Shown here: piece by piece, positions 33,430 through 41,267 of the stretch
Numbering within the stretch: position 1 is the first letter of the stretch
How the letters are laid out: the number at the start of each line of letters is the position of its first letter
Source of the DNA: Blastococcus sp. URHD0036
GTDB taxonomy: Bacteria; Actinomycetota; Actinomycetes; Mycobacteriales; Geodermatophilaceae
Reading direction: 5' to 3'
Length of the DNA stretch: 64,000 nucleotides
Assembly: GCF_000701365.1 (NCBI RefSeq)
Contig: NZ_JNIK01000011.1
Span: 186,001 to 250,000, forward strand
Program-made: the position numbers and the translations under genes
The notes under the pieces: model-generated
What the model saw: only the letters and a program-made list of their open reading frames with translations
Told to the model about the DNA's origin: nothing
Databases searched by the model: none

Positions 33430-34731
33430 CTAGGTGATGAGCCCGGCCGCCCGGACCGACCTGAGCGAGGGCTCCACCCGGTGCGTCGGGCCGACGACGG
33501 GCTCGAGCGGGTCGAGGGTCTTGAGCCCCTCGCCGGTGTTCAGGACGACGGTCTCCTTCGCCGGGTCCAGCCGGCCGTCGGCGACCAGCTGCCGGAGGAC
33601 GCCGATCGTGACGCCGCCGGCGGTCTCGGCGAAGACGCCGGTGGTCCGGGCCAGGTCGCGGATCCCCTGCACGATCTCGTCGTCGCCCACCCGGCCGACC
33701 GAGCCGCCGGTGCGCCGGATCGCGTCCAGCGCGTAGGGGCCGTCGGCGGGGTTGCCGATGTTGAGGGACTTGGCGATGCCCGTCGGCTTGACCGGCTTGA
33801 CGACGTCCCAGCCGTTGTCGAAGGCGGTGGCGATCGGGTCGCAGCCGGCCGACTGGGCGCCGAAGATCGTCCACTCCGACGCCTCGACGATGCCGGCGGC
33901 GACGAGCTCCTTGAAGGCCTTGTCCACCTTGGTGAGCAGCGAGCCCGACGCCATCGGGATGACCACCTGGGCCGGGATCCGCCAGCCGAGCTGCTCGGCG
34001 ATCTCGTAGCCCATCGTCTTGGAGCCCTCGGCGTAGTAGGGCCGGACGTTCTGGTTGACGAAGGCGCAGTCCTCGAACTCGTCGGTCTCGGCGAGCTCGC
34101 TGGTCAGCCGGTTGACGTCGTCGTAGGAGCCGTCGACGGCGACCAGCGTCTGGCCGTAGACCGCCGACTGCACGACCTTGCCCGGCTCGAGGTCGGAGGG
34201 GATGAAGACGAAGGAGGGCAGGCCGACGCGGGCGGCGTGGGCGGCCACCGAGTTCGCGAGGTTGCCGGTCGAGGCCGCGGCGATCTTCGTGTAGCCGAGA
34301 CCCTTGGCAGCGGTGGCGGCGAGGCTCACCACCCGGTCCTTGAACGAGTGGGTGGGGTTGGCCGAGTCGTCCTTCACCCACAGCCCGCCGGTGAGGCCCA
34401 GCTCGGTGGCGAGCCGGTCGGCGCGCACCAGCGGGGTCATTCCCGGGTCCAGCGAGACGCGGCCGGCCGGGTCTTGGCCCACGGGCAGCAGCGCGACGTA
34501 GCGCCAGATGTTCTGCGGGCCCGCCTCGATCTGCTCGCGGGTGACCGCTCGCATGATCTCCGGGTCGTAGTCGACCTCGAGCGGGCCGAAGCACTCGGCG
34601 CACGCGTGCTCGGCGATCAGGCCGAAGGTGGCGCCGCAGTTGCGACAGACCAGGCCGCGGGCCGGACACGGGGCGACGGGGCCGCCCTCGCTGGAGTCGG
34701 CCTGCAGAGAACCGGGAGCGGTCAGAGTCAT
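33430..34731 (-). CDS. thrC: Threonine synthase
   Basis: 433 residues. An N-terminal zinc-ribbon-like part (LVCRNCGATFG, then HACAECFGP) is followed by the PLP fold: WVKDDSANPTHSFKDR with the Schiff-base lysine, STGNLANSVAAHAARVG, SGSLLTKVDK (phosphate-binding), and GVFAETAGGVTIGVLRQL. It makes threonine from O-phosphohomoserine. Start ATG 34731. Uniquely for the gene, a SAM riboswitch occupies the leader and abuts the ribosome site, so expression should fall when SAM is plentiful. No hom or thrB gene is adjacent. Confidence 0.95.
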   Translation of the reverse strand: MTLTAPGSLQADSSEGGPVAPCPARGLVCRNCGATFGLIAEHACAECFGPLEVDYDPEIMRAVTREQIEAGPQNIWRYVALLPVGQDPAGRVSLDPGMTPLVRADRLATELGLTGGLWVKDDSANPTHSFKDRVVSLAATAAKGLGYTKIAAASTGNLANSVAAHAARVGLPSFVFIPSDLEPGKVVQSAVYGQTLVAVDGSYDDVNRLTSELAETDEFEDCAFVNQNVRPYYAEGSKTMGYEIAEQLGWRIPAQVVIPMASGSLLTKVDKAFKELVAAGIVEASEWTIFGAQSAGCDPIATAFDNGWDVVKPVKPTGIAKSLNIGNPADGPYALDAIRRTGGSVGRVGDDEIVQGIRDLARTTGVFAETAGGVTIGVLRQLVADGRLDPAKETVVLNTGEGLKTLDPLEPVVGPTHRVEPSLRSVRAAGLIT

Positions 34732-34745
34732 GCGACGACTACCTC

Positions 34746-34879
34746 CTCATCTTCCCCGCATCGGGCCGTCGAGCCGCGCGGGACGGAATTGGCACCTGCC
34801 GATGGGCGCAGCTCGGGAGCTGCGTCATCGCGGTTGCCGGGGCTTCATCGGGCCGTGTCCCTCTGCCCCTCTGGATGAG
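34746..34879 (-). promoter_or_regulatory. SAM-I riboswitch in the thrC leader
   Basis: Read on the minus strand, P1 is CTCATC (34879-34874) paired with GATGAG (34751-34746). The core AGAGGG...GGCCCGATGAAGCC...GGCAACC, the J3/4 segment GGTGCCAATTCC and the closing GGGGAAGATGAG match SAM-I. The 3' P1 strand runs directly into the Shine-Dalgarno region (GATGAGGAGGTAG), so SAM binding should block translation start of thrC. The length is about 134 bases. Confidence 0.92.
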
Positions 34880-34939
34880 TGGAACGCGGTCATGCTACCC
34901 GCGTCCGGGCGGCCCTCCCCGCGCGGCCAGACTGCTCGC

Positions 34940-35803: not shown

Positions 35804-36676
35804 TCAGGAGGTGACGTCGCGGCGGGCGAAGTGGCGGAAGCCGAGCGCGGTGAAGACGGCCGCGTAGACCAGCGACTGGACGACGCCACGGAACAGGTCA
35901 CCGGAGTCGACCGGCGTCTGCAGCAGGTCGGTCCAGGCGAACTCCCCCGCGGTCGGGAACCAGTCGCGGATCGAGCCGAGCTGCTCCACCTGGTCGAGGA
36001 TCGCGAACACGAACATCGTGAACACCGCACCGCCGACGGCGGCCAGGGGCGCGTCGGTGATCGTCGAGAACCAGAAGGCCAGCGTGCCGACGACGAGCAG
36101 GTGGACGGCGAGGTAGCCGACCATCCCCGCGAGCCGCAGCATCCCCTCGCCCTGGTCGAGGGTGACCCCGAGTGGCGTCCGGATCGCGTCGAACCCGAAG
36201 GCGATGCCGCCGGCGACCACCGCCACGGCGGTCAGCACCACGAGGGCGCCACCGGACAGCAACAGCGCGGCGGCGAACTTCTGCCGCAGCAGCCGCATCC
36301 GGGGCACCGGTGTCGCGAGCGTGTACCGCAGTGACCCCCAGGACGCCTCGCTGGCGACGGTGTCGCCGAAGAACAGCGCGTAGACCACGACCAGGAAGAA
36401 CCCGGTGGTCGCGAAGAGCACGAACAGCGTGAAGTTCAGCCCGCTGGAGGTGGCGACGTCGACCAGGTTCAGCCGGCTGTTCTCCTGCGCGTCGTCGCTC
36501 GCCCCGAACTTCAAGGCCGCGATGAGGATCAGCGGCAGCGCCACCATGAGCGCGAGCGCGCCGAGGGTGCGCCGCCGCTTGAACTGCCGGCGCAGCTCCA
36601 CCGACAACCGCAGGGTGCGCTCCGGCCGGTAGCCGGCCACCGCTCCGGTCGGCTGCACGTGCTCCGGAGCGGTCAC
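35804..36676 (-). CDS. ABC-2-type transporter permease
   Basis: 290 residues with about six predicted membrane helices (LGALALMVALPLILIAAL, LFVLFATTGFFLVVVYALFF, LLSGGALVVLTAVAVVAGG, YLAVHLLVVGTLAFWFST, AVFTMFVFAILDQ, LVYAAVFTALGF). A motif EASWGSLRYTLATPVPRMRL between helices is typical of ABC-2 permeases. The GTG start overlaps the upstream stop (GTGA) of the hydrolase-ATPase fusion, so the two form one transporter. The cargo is unknown. Confidence 0.88.
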   Translation of the reverse strand: MTAPEHVQPTGAVAGYRPERTLRLSVELRRQFKRRRTLGALALMVALPLILIAALKFGASDDAQENSRLNLVDVATSSGLNFTLFVLFATTGFFLVVVYALFFGDTVASEASWGSLRYTLATPVPRMRLLRQKFAAALLLSGGALVVLTAVAVVAGGIAFGFDAIRTPLGVTLDQGEGMLRLAGMVGYLAVHLLVVGTLAFWFSTITDAPLAAVGGAVFTMFVFAILDQVEQLGSIRDWFPTAGEFAWTDLLQTPVDSGDLFRGVVQSLVYAAVFTALGFRHFARRDVTS

Positions 36677-39576
36677 GACTCCCCCACCAGTGCCAGGAAC
36701 GCGTCCTCGAGCCGCCGCCGCGGGGTGAACTGGTCGACCGCCAGGTCCGCGGCCACGAGCGTCTGCAGCGCCTGCGCCCGGGTCGTGCCCTCGCCGAGGT
36801 CGGCGACCAGACCGTCGTCGGTGCGCTCGGCGGTGACCCCGGGCAGCGACTGCAGGACGGCGATCGCGCGCTCGGTGTCACCGGCGGCGACCCCCACCAG
36901 GACCTGACCACCGGTCCCGACGATCTCCTCCACGGTGCCCTGGGCGATCTTCTGCCCCTTGGCCATGACGACGACGTGGCTGCAGGTCTGCTCGATCTCG
37001 CTGAGCAGGTGGCTGGAGACGATGACCGTGCGCCCGGTCGCCGCGTAGGAGCGCAGCACCTCGCGCATGGCGTGGATCTGGGGCGGGTCGAGGCCGTTGG
37101 TCGGCTCGTCGAGCACCAGCAGGTCGGGCAGGCCGAGCATCGCCTGGGCGATCGCGACCCGCTGGCGCATGCCCTGGCTGTAGCGGCGCACCGGCCGGTC
37201 GATCGCGGCGCCCAGGCCCGCGACCTCGGTCGCCTCGTCCATGTGCGCGTCCGCGTCGGGCCGGCCGGTCGCCGCCCAGTACAGCCGCAGGTTGTCCCGG
37301 CCGGACAGGTGCGGCATCAGGCCGGTGCCCTCGACGAAGGACCCCAGCCGGGAGAGGACGGGAGCGCCCGGGCCGGCCGAGTGCCCGAAGACGCTGATCC
37401 GCCCCTCGGTGGGCCGGATCAGCCCCATGAGCATCCGCAGCGACGTCGTCTTGCCGGCGCCGTTGGGGCCGAGCAGGCCCAGGACCTGGCCGCGCCGCAC
37501 CTCGAACGACAGGTCCCGGACGGCGACGAAGCCGTCCTTGTAGGCCTTGGTGACCCCCTCGAACCGCAGCGGCACGTCCTCGCCGTCGGGCTCCACCCGC
37601 GACGTCCGGCGCCGCTGCCGGCGACCCCACAGCCGCGCGGCGAGCCAGCCGAGCAGGGCCAGGGCCGCCAGCACACCGAGCAGCACCCACCAGCGGGCGC
37701 TCCCGCTGGTGCCGACCGGGGTGCCGTCGACCTCGGGCACGGCGAGCACCGCGCCGTCCCCATCCGCGAGCGCCACCGAGTACACCGCCGGCTCCGCCGG
37801 GAGGGCGAACGCCTGGTCGGTGGTCGAGACGAGGACGCGCAGGATGTGGCCCACCTCGAACCGGTGCACGATGCCGGGCAGGGTCACGGACACCTCGGTC
37901 GGCGTGGCCGGATCGGTCGATATGCCGCTGAGCCGCACCGGCGCGACCAGGCCCGACGGCAGCGTCAGGCCGCCGTCGGGATCGACGTCGTAGAGCTTGG
38001 CGAAGAGCACGGCCTCACCGCGGGGCGAGGAGACCGCGAGGTCGACGGTGGGGGCGCCGACGACCTCGACGGCGGCGGTCAGCGGCCGACTGGCGAAGGT
38101 GGCGAACTGTCCCGGGATCTCGAGGGTCGTCCCGCCCAGCGCCGCGGTCACCGCGCCGAGCCCCGGCACGGTGGTCAGCGCCGCGGGTGCCCCGCCGGCC
38201 GGGGTGACGACCGGCTGGGCCGGCCCGGAGAGCGCGACCGCGTCGCGTTCGGCCGGCCGGTCGCCGGCCAGGCCCGGGTACGCCCCGGCCACGACGGTCC
38301 GCGCGGCGCTGCCGCCCTGCACGGTCAGGCCGCTGGTCGCGACGCCGGTGGGTGCGGGGAACTCGAAGCCCGTGCCGGGGTCGCTGCCCCGCGCGGGGTC
38401 GCCCTCGTCGCGCAGGTACCAGGAGAACCAGTCCGCGACCTCGTCGCGCAGCCCGGCCGCGGTCCGGTCGGAGCCGCTGTCGTCGTGGCCGCCGTCGTAC
38501 CAGACCACCCGCACGGGAGTGCCGTTGGCGGCGATCCCCCGGGCGTTCGCGTCGGCCTGGCCGAGTCCGAACAGCGAGTCCCGGGTGCCCTGGATCAGCA
38601 GCGTGGGCGCGGAGATGCGGTCCAGCACACCGGCCGGACTGCTCCGGTCGAGGACCTCGGCGATCTCCGGCGTCAGCGTCCCCGTCGCGGCCGCCTGCTG
38701 GTAGGCCGTGCAGACGTCGGCGCGGAACCGGCCGCAGGTCAGGAACTCCTCGACGGCGGCCGGGTCCAGCGTGCCCGGGTCGATGTCGGTCAGGTCCGGA
38801 GCACCGACCTGGTCCGCTCCCCCGCCGCCCAGGACGTCGAGCAGCCCGCCGCCGGTGGGCACCGAGCCGACGCCGAAGAACAGCCCGGCCCACAGCCGCT
38901 TGAAGACCCCGCCCTCGCCCTGCGGCGTGGCCGCCACCGTCGCGGCGTCGACGGTGCCGGACGAGTTCGGGAAGAGCGCGGCCGACAGCGAGTTCCAGGT
39001 GATCTGCGGGGCGATCGCGTCGACGCGGTCGTCGTAGGCCGCTCCCAGCAGGGAGAGCGCCCCGCCGTAGGAGGCGCCGGCGACGCCCACCCGCGGGTCG
39101 CCCGGCCCGTCGAGCAGGACGTCGTCCCGGTCGGCGAGCAGGTCCAGCAGCGTGGAGAGGTCGGCGACCTCGTAGCGCGGGTCGTCCAGGCCGATCCGGC
39201 CGGTGCTGGCGCCGAAGCCGCGCGCGGAGAACGTGAGGACGACGAACCCGCGCCCGGCGAGGTCACGGGCGTCGTCGGCCACCGACTCCTTGCTGCCGCC
39301 GAAGCCGTGCGCGAGGACCACCGCCGGGGCGGGGTCGTCGCCGTCGGGCAGGTAGAGCGTGGTGTCCAGTTCCACCGCGTCGTCCCCGGTCCCGGACGCG
39401 ACCGTGGCGTCCTCGGTGCTCACCCCGGCCGCGGAGGCGGACGCGGGGACGACGAGCAGGGCGCCGGAGAGCAGGAGCGTGAGCAGGGCGACGAGCGTCG
39501 ACCGGGCGCCGGGGCGCGGGCGGGGACGATCGGGCCCGCGGGGAGGGCGCACGGAGCGGCCAACGGACGGCGTCAC
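36673..39576 (-). CDS. Secreted alpha/beta hydrolase fused to an ABC ATPase
   Basis: 967 residues. Residues 1-50 form a signal peptide (LVALLTLLLSGALLVVPASA). About 70-400 is an alpha/beta hydrolase: AVVLAHGFGGSKE oxyanion strand, nucleophile Ser-169 in GASYGG, Asp in IQGTRDSLF, His in YDGGHDD, as in CocE/X-Pro peptidases. About 400-620 is the matching beta-jelly-roll domain. Residues ~628-650 (WWVLLGVLAALALLGWLAAR) are a membrane helix followed by basic RRQRRR, placing the next part inside. From ~668 is a complete ABC ATPase: Walker A GPNGAGKTT (703-711), signature YSQGMRQR, Walker B LLVLDEPTNGLDP. It is coupled to the permease at 35804-36676. The start GTG 39576 is inferred. Confidence 0.93.
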   Translation of the reverse strand: MTPSVGRSVRPPRGPDRPRPRPGARSTLVALLTLLLSGALLVVPASASAAGVSTEDATVASGTGDDAVELDTTLYLPDGDDPAPAVVLAHGFGGSKESVADDARDLAGRGFVVLTFSARGFGASTGRIGLDDPRYEVADLSTLLDLLADRDDVLLDGPGDPRVGVAGASYGGALSLLGAAYDDRVDAIAPQITWNSLSAALFPNSSGTVDAATVAATPQGEGGVFKRLWAGLFFGVGSVPTGGGLLDVLGGGGADQVGAPDLTDIDPGTLDPAAVEEFLTCGRFRADVCTAYQQAAATGTLTPEIAEVLDRSSPAGVLDRISAPTLLIQGTRDSLFGLGQADANARGIAANGTPVRVVWYDGGHDDSGSDRTAAGLRDEVADWFSWYLRDEGDPARGSDPGTGFEFPAPTGVATSGLTVQGGSAARTVVAGAYPGLAGDRPAERDAVALSGPAQPVVTPAGGAPAALTTVPGLGAVTAALGGTTLEIPGQFATFASRPLTAAVEVVGAPTVDLAVSSPRGEAVLFAKLYDVDPDGGLTLPSGLVAPVRLSGISTDPATPTEVSVTLPGIVHRFEVGHILRVLVSTTDQAFALPAEPAVYSVALADGDGAVLAVPEVDGTPVGTSGSARWWVLLGVLAALALLGWLAARLWGRRQRRRTSRVEPDGEDVPLRFEGVTKAYKDGFVAVRDLSFEVRRGQVLGLLGPNGAGKTTSLRMLMGLIRPTEGRISVFGHSAGPGAPVLSRLGSFVEGTGLMPHLSGRDNLRLYWAATGRPDADAHMDEATEVAGLGAAIDRPVRRYSQGMRQRVAIAQAMLGLPDLLVLDEPTNGLDPPQIHAMREVLRSYAATGRTVIVSSHLLSEIEQTCSHVVVMAKGQKIAQGTVEEIVGTGGQVLVGVAAGDTERAIAVLQSLPGVTAERTDDGLVADLGEGTTRAQALQTLVAADLAVDQFTPRRRLEDAFLALVGES

Positions 39577-39611: not shown

Positions 39612-41267
39612 TCAGGGCGTCCAGTCTCCGGCGGCGACCACGACCAGCCCGTCGGCCGCGGCCGCCGAGACCTCGAAGAAGCGCACCGCCGGACCGGACA
39701 CCTCGGGATGTGCCTCGACCAGCTGCAGCGCGGACTGCCGCTGGGCCTCGTTCCCCTCGGTGAAGTACACGGTGGTCACCGCGACGTCGGTGCCCGGGTA
39801 GGGCCCCGTCTCGAGCGTGGGCCAGCCGCCCTCGCCGAGCACGTCGGCGATGTCGCCGGCCAGGCCGGTGACGTCGGTGGAGTTGAGGACGCTGACCGGC
39901 ACCCGCACCGGCGTGGCCGGCGCCTGGTCCACCGGTGGCAGCGGCTCGGCGCTCAGCGGCGGCAGCGCGGCACTGGTCGGCAGCGGCGCGGAGGTGGTGG
40001 GCACCGCGGCACGGCCGTCGTCGGAGGCCTCCTGGGTCTCCGGGGAGGCGAAGGAGTACACGCCGAGCACCAGCAGGGCGACCACCACGACGGCCACCAG
40101 TGCACCCACCCCGCGTCGGCGGGTCGGGCGCGGCTCGTCCTCCTCCGTGCCGGGGACGGTCACCCGGACGTGCTTGACGCCGTTGCGCTTGTCCTCGCGG
40201 CGTCGCTCCTCCTCGGCGGCCCGGCGCTCGGCGCGCAGCGCGGCCCGGCCACCCACCACCCCGGTCTGCGATCCGCTGGTGGGACCGGTCGACCTGGGCC
40301 GTTCGCCCCGGCCCTGGTCGGGGAGGCCGGAACCGCGACCGCCGGAGAACCGGTCGTCCGCGGGAGCGTCCACCTCGTGCGGGCCGGCGTCGGGCACCTC
40401 CGTGGCGGGGGCCGCGAGAGCCGGGACCTCGGTGGGCGGGACGACGGTCTCGGGCGCCGCGACCCGGTCGCGGACGATCTCCCGGTCGGGGATGGCGGTC
40501 GTCGCCGGTGCCGCCCCCGAGCCCGACGGCCGGGTCCAGTCGCGGTAGGCCGGGTTCCCGTTGGGAACGGCGGGGGACGGCGCCACGGGGGCGCGGGAGG
40601 CCTTGCCGGGACGCTGGCCGACGGTGGGGACGACGGTCGCCGGCGCGTCGGCGGGCGGCGCCTCGTCCAGCCAGGCGCGGTCCCACGACGGGGAGGACAC
40701 GTCGGGCAGCGGCGCGGACGGGTGCTCGGTCGGCGCCGGCGCGGGCACCGCCTGGAACGGGGCCATGGTGGTCCGCGGCCCGGCCGACGCCGCGGGCTGC
40801 GCGGCGGGAGCGGCTGCCCGGGCGGACGCCGCGGGCTGCGCGGCGGGAGCGGCTGCCCGGGTGGATGCCCCGGCGACCGCCGGGGCGGCCACGGGGCGGG
40901 CCCGGGAGGGTGCCGGGGGCTCGACCGGCCGCGGTCGGCCGGCAGGCGGCGCGGCTGCGGTGGCCACCGCCGGCGTGGGCCCCGCAGGTGGTGCCGCTGC
41001 CGGGCGGCCCGGCGCGGACGGGCGGGCCGCCGCGGGAGGCGCGGGCGGGCCCAGGCGGGGCGGACGACCGGGGTCGATCCCGGCCTCGAGCAGGCCGTCG
41101 CGACGCCGGTCGGCCCGGCTGCGGGCCGGCGAGGTGGGGTGGTCGTCCGGGTCCTCGGCGGCGTCGACCCGCGGCGGCAGCGCCGCGTCGGTACGGCGAC
41201 GGTTCAGCGGAGCCGAGGGGTTCCCCCGGTCGCGTCCGTCACCGCCTGGTGCGTCATGCCTCCCCAC
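39612..41267 (-). CDS. LytR C-terminal-domain membrane protein
   Basis: 551 residues. A very long Pro/Ala/Gly-rich cytosolic N-terminus (about residues 1-340) leads to a basic stretch RAALRAERRAAEEERRREDK, then one membrane helix (GVGALVAVVVVALLVLGVYS). Outside is a LytR_C domain (VPVSVLNSTDVTGLAGDIAD; DVAVTTVYFTEG). Actinobacterial proteins with this layout (Rv2700/Cei-type) affect envelope integrity. The disordered part contains a 13-residue tandem duplication (40786-40863). It starts just after the DUF3263 gene on the same strand. Confidence 0.85.
   Translation of the reverse strand: MGRHDAPGGDGRDRGNPSAPLNRRRTDAALPPRVDAAEDPDDHPTSPARSRADRRRDGLLEAGIDPGRPPRLGPPAPPAAARPSAPGRPAAAPPAGPTPAVATAAAPPAGRPRPVEPPAPSRARPVAAPAVAGASTRAAAPAAQPAASARAAAPAAQPAASAGPRTTMAPFQAVPAPAPTEHPSAPLPDVSSPSWDRAWLDEAPPADAPATVVPTVGQRPGKASRAPVAPSPAVPNGNPAYRDWTRPSGSGAAPATTAIPDREIVRDRVAAPETVVPPTEVPALAAPATEVPDAGPHEVDAPADDRFSGGRGSGLPDQGRGERPRSTGPTSGSQTGVVGGRAALRAERRAAEEERRREDKRNGVKHVRVTVPGTEEDEPRPTRRRGVGALVAVVVVALLVLGVYSFASPETQEASDDGRAAVPTTSAPLPTSAALPPLSAEPLPPVDQAPATPVRVPVSVLNSTDVTGLAGDIADVLGEGGWPTLETGPYPGTDVAVTTVYFTEGNEAQRQSALQLVEAHPEVSGPAVRFFEVSAAAADGLVVVAAGDWTP
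40786..40863. repeat. 39-bp tandem duplication inside the LytR_C gene
   Basis: Two adjacent copies (40786-40824 and 40825-40863) of a GC-rich 39-base unit, the first 37 bases identical, encoding RAAAPAAQPAASA twice. Being in frame, it only lengthens the disordered N-terminal part. Confidence 0.85.

Follow-up and report, generated by a model that had tools for sequence, protein, structure and literature searches.

This analysis concerns a gene in a 64,000-nucleotide stretch of Blastococcus sp. URHD0036 (contig NZ_JNIK01000011.1), here called the window, by which the whole stretch is meant. The gene, referred to as the fusion, combines a hydrolase, a single membrane helix and a complete ATP-binding cassette (ABC) ATPase in one polypeptide and is directly followed by a gene for an ABC-2 type permease. 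The features of both genes are as follows (coordinates in the window).

36673..39576, minus strand: fusion gene, GTG start, 967 amino acids without internal stop (signal peptide, CocE/NonD-type hydrolase, PepX_C-like domain, membrane helix and ABC ATPase)
39430..39576, minus strand: signal peptide, residues 1-49, with the AxA-like end SASAAG (sequence and hydropathy)
38377..39429, minus strand: alpha/beta hydrolase core with cap region, residues 50-400, with the pair Cys281/Cys289 (Pfam and ectodomain model)
39070..39072, minus strand: codon of the catalytic Ser169 in GASYGG (24/24 aligned rows)
38578..38580, minus strand: codon of the catalytic Asp333 (24/24 aligned rows)
38485..38487, minus strand: codon of the catalytic His364 in GGHD (24/24 aligned rows)
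37762..38376, minus strand: PepX_C-like beta domain, residues 401-605 (Pfam; lipase and CocE structural matches across the whole ectodomain)
37630..37686, minus strand: single membrane helix, residues 631-649 (hydropathy; helix 625-658 in the model)
37597..37629, minus strand: basic stop-transfer tail WGRRQRRRTSR, residues 650-660 (sequence and positive-inside count)
36907..37572, minus strand: ABC ATPase, residues 669-890, with Walker A GPNGAGKT at 703-710 (Pfam and alignments)
36676..36906, minus strand: C-terminal extension of the ATPase, residues 891-967 (alignment and model)
36673..36676, minus strand: stop/start overlap of fusion and permease, 4 nucleotides, GTGA (sequence)
35804..36676, minus strand: ABC-2 permease, 290 amino acids, five hydrophobic segments above 1.5 (Pfam ABC2_membrane_2 and hydropathy)

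Architecture and predicted topology

The original prediction, made from the letters alone, described one polypeptide with a signal peptide, a hydrolase, a membrane helix and a complete ABC ATPase beside its permease, and open reading frame, Pfam profiles and hydropathy agree on this description. Peptidase_S15 covers residues 66-335 (59.2 bits; cut-off 23), PepX_C residues 490-594 (47.8 bits; cut-off 22.5) and ABC_tran (PF00005) residues 687-827 (103.3 bits; cut-off 25). The overlapping permease frame matches ABC2_membrane_2 (PF12679) with 52.7 bits against a cut-off of 27.2. A mean hydropathy of 1.6 over 19 residues is reached twice in the fusion, at residues 27-45 in the signal peptide and at residues 631-649 in the membrane helix. 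By eye, the N-terminal helix of several homologues shows no AxA-like end and may remain as an anchor.

Homologues were compared in two alignments, one of 26 rows (A2) and one of 24 rows, both including the window. The 12 positions after the membrane helix hold more basic residues than those before it in 26/26 and 24/24 rows, respectively, so that the basic residues earlier noticed on the C-terminal side of the helix (WGRRQRRRTSR in the window) recur throughout. Because the helix is followed by a basic tail and the basic excess lies behind it in both alignments, the hydrolase is predicted to lie outside and the ATPase inside. The originally proposed topology is thus consistent, with no row in which the helix faces the wrong way. 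The ectodomain pair Cys281/Cys289, kept in 22 of the 24 rows and invariant in the 26 rows of A2, suits an extracytoplasmic disulphide. On the ATPase side, Walker A (GPNGAGKT), the signature-like YSQGM/YSHGM, Walker B and the H-loop His are fully or almost fully conserved in the aligned fusions.

Identity of the enzyme and the transporter

The triad Ser169-Asp333-His364 is as intact as was claimed, being invariant in all 24 rows and in the 26 rows of A2. Members of the CocE/NonD family carry the catalytic Ser within a GxSYxG motif, which GASYGG around Ser169 fits. The ectodomain passes the CocE_NonD model (TIGR00976) with 74.5 bits against the curated NCBIfam cut-off of 66.3, and the homologue L060 reaches 106.5 bits; the model is not among the 25 families listed for each of the homologues L103 and L163, where ABC models take up the lists. 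The earlier term 'X-Pro-type', on the other hand, survives only as the Pfam name of the fold, since the NCBIfam model for Xaa-Pro dipeptidyl-peptidase (NF003780) scores 20 bits against a cut-off of 642. X-Pro peptidase was rejected as a name for the enzyme on this score.

The AlphaFold2 model of the ectodomain has a mean predicted local distance difference test score (pLDDT) of 87.1 and a predicted template modelling score (pTM) of 0.89. Its best solved structural match is the lipase 8yzn/8yzo (VIA-align Z 32, 453 residues, root-mean-square deviation 2.9 Å), followed by cocaine esterase, most entries of which reach Z 26.5-26.8 with 469-478 residues aligned. The X-prolyl dipeptidyl aminopeptidase 6nff is nearly tied with the latter (Z 25.7, 458 residues), whereas Foldseek places cocaine esterase well above the X-prolyl enzymes. 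The structure-search rows comprise esterases, lipases, S9 and S15 peptidases and other alpha/beta hydrolases, and a family not listed there is not thereby excluded. At the putative oxyanion motif the family carries HGF (HGY in two ATPase-less paralogues), a position that may correspond to Tyr44 in the oxyanion hole of CocE. Judged by profiles and modelled fold, an ester-cleaving enzyme appears likelier than an X-Pro peptidase.

With the ATPase motifs (Walker A, Walker B, signature and H-loop) and an adjacent ABC2 membrane protein, the pair has the hallmarks of an ABC-2 exporter. The best NCBIfam scores of the ATPase are those of the DrrA and lantibiotic-protection exporter models, both below their cut-offs (TIGR01188, 172 against 312; TIGR03740, 166 against 310). 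Its best sequence matches in the PDB are ABCA phospholipid transporters, which is weak evidence on the substrate. For the homologue L163, the permease scores below the Pfam cut-offs. A check for defence systems gave PADLOC matches confined to the ATPase part, and a defence-system reading was rejected for that reason.

Distribution, origin and genomic surroundings

Named bacterial and archaeal genomes were scanned with a hydrolase-only alignment (A1) of domains taken from fused proteins only, and the best 80 of 432 relatives were kept. Two of these loci are cut by contig ends; among the remaining 78, the hydrolase is fused in 77, and the single unfused one is L102. Since A1 was built from fused proteins and only the best 80 rows were kept, this proportion speaks for close homologues. 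Among these, the halves are not usually separate genes in unrelated contexts, and the recurrence of the same layout in 77/78 uncut loci places the architecture beyond chance. The permease directly follows in all 76 named loci with enough contig, with a 4-nucleotide stop/start overlap in 58 of them. A frameshift or misassembly artefact was likewise rejected on the count of 77/78. In two genomes of the window's own family (L187 and L188), the fusion gene spans two reading frames, probably as a result of sequencing errors.

A search across the phylum, Actinomycetota, returned some hydrolase match at E <= 0.001 in 245 of 396 genomes, many of them short and weak. Of 33 regions from this search, 23 hold the fusion with its permease, nine are unfused and one (L073) is cut by a contig end. 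Combining the sets, 69 of 80 hydrolase rows are fused and 11 are not. The low-GC loci L163-L166 were judged by their open frames. In a sample of the class, 73/296 genomes (own genome included) and 31/115 genera match at E <= 1e-100, a few rows lying in short frames; these are matches and not counts of fusions. Within the window's family, all but one of the 112 genomes match the hydrolase at E <= 1e-40. In G401, G405 and G493, however, the only match is of a weaker kind with 35-39% identity, and the fusion may be missing. Overall, the system is frequent without being universal. It occurs in Streptomyces, is retained in a 1.34-Mb, 99% complete, single-contig genome (G528), and such a protein is annotated in Tsukamurella tyrosinosolvens as 'alpha/beta fold hydrolase' beside an 'ABC transporter permease'.

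A tree of 87 ATPase domains separates the 70 fused ones from all others at a single branch (support 100/100), which is compatible with one origin of the fused ATPases; the 17 unfused ATPases are those present in the sampled loci, some with long branches. In this tree, the nearest named relatives of the window are Blastococcus and Geodermatophilus. Genome G633 carries two diverged fusion copies (L179 and L180) in different parts of this tree, whose substrates could differ, and genome G520 also gives two matches.

Four loci from three genera of the window's family (L183-L186) encode ATPase-less paralogues. These are sister to the fused clade of the window (98/96) and stand amid fused sequences; they keep the triad and end in a membrane helix with a basic tail, e.g., TLRRKRRGTPSWS. 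Their sequences are most simply read as products of a duplication after which the ATPase was lost and the anchor retained, and they also support the predicted topology. The hydrolase tree used 37 of the 69 fused rows, and one of L102 and L186, which encode an identical protein, was dropped. Its count of three changes is inflated because L073 was labelled standalone merely on account of a contig end inside the gene. Other unfused S15-type relatives (L070, L071, L074, L077 and L079) are more remote; hydrolases at such a distance mostly lack the fused ATPase. One of them (L074:7310-10270) carries C-terminal CW_binding_2 repeats, which bind the cell wall, where the fusion has its ATPase.

Beyond the fusion and its permease, no gene family is common to all 26 neighbourhoods in an all-against-all comparison with one locus per chosen genus or group; other rows with 25 partners are ATPase matches, and opposite-strand rows over the permease are its shadows. 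The lack of a further shared family argues against a dedicated biosynthetic cluster, and the change of neighbourhood between lineages suggests a housekeeping role. Among lineage-specific neighbours, Pfam recognised TerC, prolyl oligopeptidase, a RES domain, an AAA ATPase and threonine synthase-like enzymes, among others, and one protein was without a family. The neighbours in two streamlined genomes are again mixed. No peptide synthetase occurs among the 18 neighbour proteins sent to Pfam, most neighbours lying outside that scan. The neighbourhood was consequently rejected as a pointer to function or substrate, being mixed and having no further family in common.

In the window, the gene upstream of the fusion (39612-41267, minus strand) encodes a protein with a LytR_C domain and a long N-terminal region rich in proline and alanine. 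The window also contains thrC (33430-34731, minus strand), a threonine synthase (TIGR00260, 235.6 against 167.1), directly preceded by an S-adenosylmethionine (SAM) riboswitch (RF00162, 72.3 bits; 34744-34881, minus strand). A SAM riboswitch was also found in 8/8 related loci scanned. In seven of these (L081, L088, L092, L107, L109, L126 and L143), it lies just before the start of the homologous open reading frame or overlaps it; for L081 and L126, this frame was shown to encode a PALP-family enzyme. A SAM sensor on threonine synthase would sit at the branch point of threonine and methionine.

Coupling of the two halves and comparison with known systems

Conservation is unevenly distributed along the chain. 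In the two alignments, the ATPase reaches a mean column identity of 0.77-0.81 and the hydrolase core one of 0.61-0.68, against 0.39-0.42 in the outer linker, 0.39-0.49 in the helix and 0.48-0.52 in the inner linker; the hydrolase cap is likewise variable (0.25-0.36). The length of this connecting stretch, by contrast, is nearly fixed, the anchor residues P614 and L675 lying 57-64 residues apart in 25/26 rows of A2 and 56-64 apart in 20/24 rows of the other set. From these alignments the linker looks like a tether of set length and not a lever, which favours an enzyme held at the mouth of the permease. The whole-chain model has a pTM of 0.63, which leaves the position of one half relative to the other uncertain in the monomer. 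The originally suggested mechanical linkage of hydrolysis and transport is not supported, given the weak conservation of linkers and helix and the drop in pTM from ectodomain to whole chain. A lever acting through a single helix is a less probable form of coupling than proximity.

Our preferred reading, to which we give slightly less than an even chance, is that of a two-gene hydrolase-transporter in which an ABC-2 transporter supplies the hydrolase tethered to it with an amphiphile that carries an ester or amide. ABC-2 transporters contain two ATPases and two membrane subunits, and two hydrolases would therefore sit over the permease. Two fusion chains and two permeases would form one ABC-2 type complex, with the CocE-like serine hydrolase tethered above its outer mouth. 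ATP-driven motion of the permease would carry an amphipathic, ester- or amide-bearing substrate to the outer face, to be cut at once by the tethered enzyme; a first guess at this substrate is a membrane lipid or lipid-linked compound. Coupling would consist of proximity and hand-over, with no rigid lever. The task is probably a housekeeping one and not part of an antibiotic pathway.

A parallel is offered by YbbAP-TesA of E. coli, described in a recent report as an ABC complex that hands compounds from the membrane to a hydrolase on the outside, the extraction itself awaiting experimental confirmation according to its authors (PMC12646458). The transporter there, YbbAP, is of Type VII, and its authors see no transfer through the membrane (PMC12646458). 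The fusion could tentatively be seen as an independently arisen, widespread actinobacterial counterpart, in which the hydrolase forms part of the ATPase chain, lipid-like esters would be lifted from the membrane and cut, and an ABC-2 permease takes the place of the Type VII transporter.

Four points weigh against the hydrolase-transporter reading. YbbAP has a Type VII architecture, which differs from the ABC-2 type found here, so that its mechanism need not carry over. The hydrolase fold is common to esterases and peptidases, so that fold alone does not fix the substrate. The fusion appears dispensable in some lineages, given that the class listing shows 22 f2 genomes, of which 20 lack a match at E <= 1e-100 (G278 and G735 do match; 203 further genomes without a match are not itemised there). 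Finally, the triad, helix and basic tail kept by L183-L186 suggest that the enzyme can be useful without transport.

Export followed by maturation is a rather unlikely alternative. In this scheme, the ABC pair would move a small peptide or metabolite out of the cytoplasm for the outer hydrolase to trim, as in prodrug activation of the ZmaM type. The ATPase scores best with the DrrA and lantibiotic-protection exporter models, though under their cut-offs, but the hydrolase is from another family (CocE/NonD). Moreover, the gene is widespread, stands among changing neighbours and is present even in the 1.34-Mb genome, and the 18 scanned neighbour proteins are mixed and include no peptide synthetase. 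It is also unlikely that the hydrolase is merely anchored, acting alone on the outer surface and sharing the ATPase chain for co-expression without any hand-over. Such an arrangement would agree with the poorly conserved linkers and with the ATPase-less paralogues, which have the same kind of anchor, are sister to the window's fused clade and keep the triad; yet the halves are almost never separated in close homologues and the linker keeps its length of 57-64 residues in 25/26 rows of A2.

Mechanotransmission, in which ATP binding would toggle the hydrolase across the membrane as FtsEX does for peptidoglycan hydrolases, with nothing transported, seems improbable. A single chain does span ATPase and hydrolase, and known ABC systems are reported to control outer hydrolases in this way. 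One variable helix between two variable linkers nonetheless makes a poor lever, the full-chain model has the low pTM given above, and the permease matches ABC2_membrane_2 and not the Type VII kind. Very improbable, lastly, is an X-Pro dipeptidyl-peptidase whose ectodomain would remove X-Pro dipeptides from peptides for the transporter to import or clear, because the dedicated NCBIfam model fails by a wide gap (20 against 642), the lipase is clearly the best structural match and Foldseek prefers cocaine esterase, even though Pfam S15 and PepX_C both pass and 6nff lies near cocaine esterase among the structural matches.

Compared with known proteins, the ectodomain of the hydrolase-transporter shares fold and PepX_C-like domain with CocE/NonD hydrolases, cocaine esterase and the lipase PaL (8yzn). 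Unlike the fusion, solved structures of the CocE/NonD type are chains of 505-587 residues that comprise the hydrolase and no ABC ATPase. Its ATPase is of the type of the DrrA and lantibiotic-protection ABC-2 exporters, with scores under the curated cut-offs. In those families a small permease gene adjoins the ATPase gene, likewise seen here, and they are not known to have an ectodomain. TesA, with its SGNH fold, is of another fold than the fusion hydrolase.

YbbAP-TesA resembles the fusion in pairing an ABC transporter with an outward esterase thought to receive hydrophobic membrane compounds (PMC12646458). The two differ in that the E. coli system has a separate esterase gene and a Type VII (MacB-like) transporter, whereas the CocE-like enzyme of the fusion is joined to the ATPase and served by an ABC-2 permease; on this description, the fusion is not a member of that system. 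The prodrug peptidases ZmaM, EdeA and PamJ do, like the fusion, unite an outer hydrolase, a membrane part and an ABC domain in one chain (PMC9889268). Unlike it, they contain an S12 beta-lactamase-like peptidase and belong to antibiotic gene clusters (PMC9889268), and neither an S12 peptidase (PF00144) nor a beta-lactamase is among the 19 Pfam families listed for the fusion up to E = 1.

No description of the fusion was found in full-text literature with sparse coverage of subscription journals, and the term 'ABC transporter' is absent from the main text of a paper that deals with domain architectures of prolyl oligopeptidases (PMC4522959). The union of an outer hydrolase with an inner ATP motor in one chain, retained in many families of a phylum that matters to industry and medicine, seems unstudied. 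If hand-over is true, this would be a second, independent transporter that feeds its own enzyme. As hydrolase, helix and motor are one gene that is also present in Streptomyces, coupling by force or by proximity could be addressed with point mutants, for which the ATPase-less paralogues provide a natural control. The parts are known, and what seems new is the combination of hydrolase and transporter with its own enzyme family, permease type and covalent arrangement. The fusion resembles YbbAP-TesA in logic and ZmaM in layout, and is a member of neither family.

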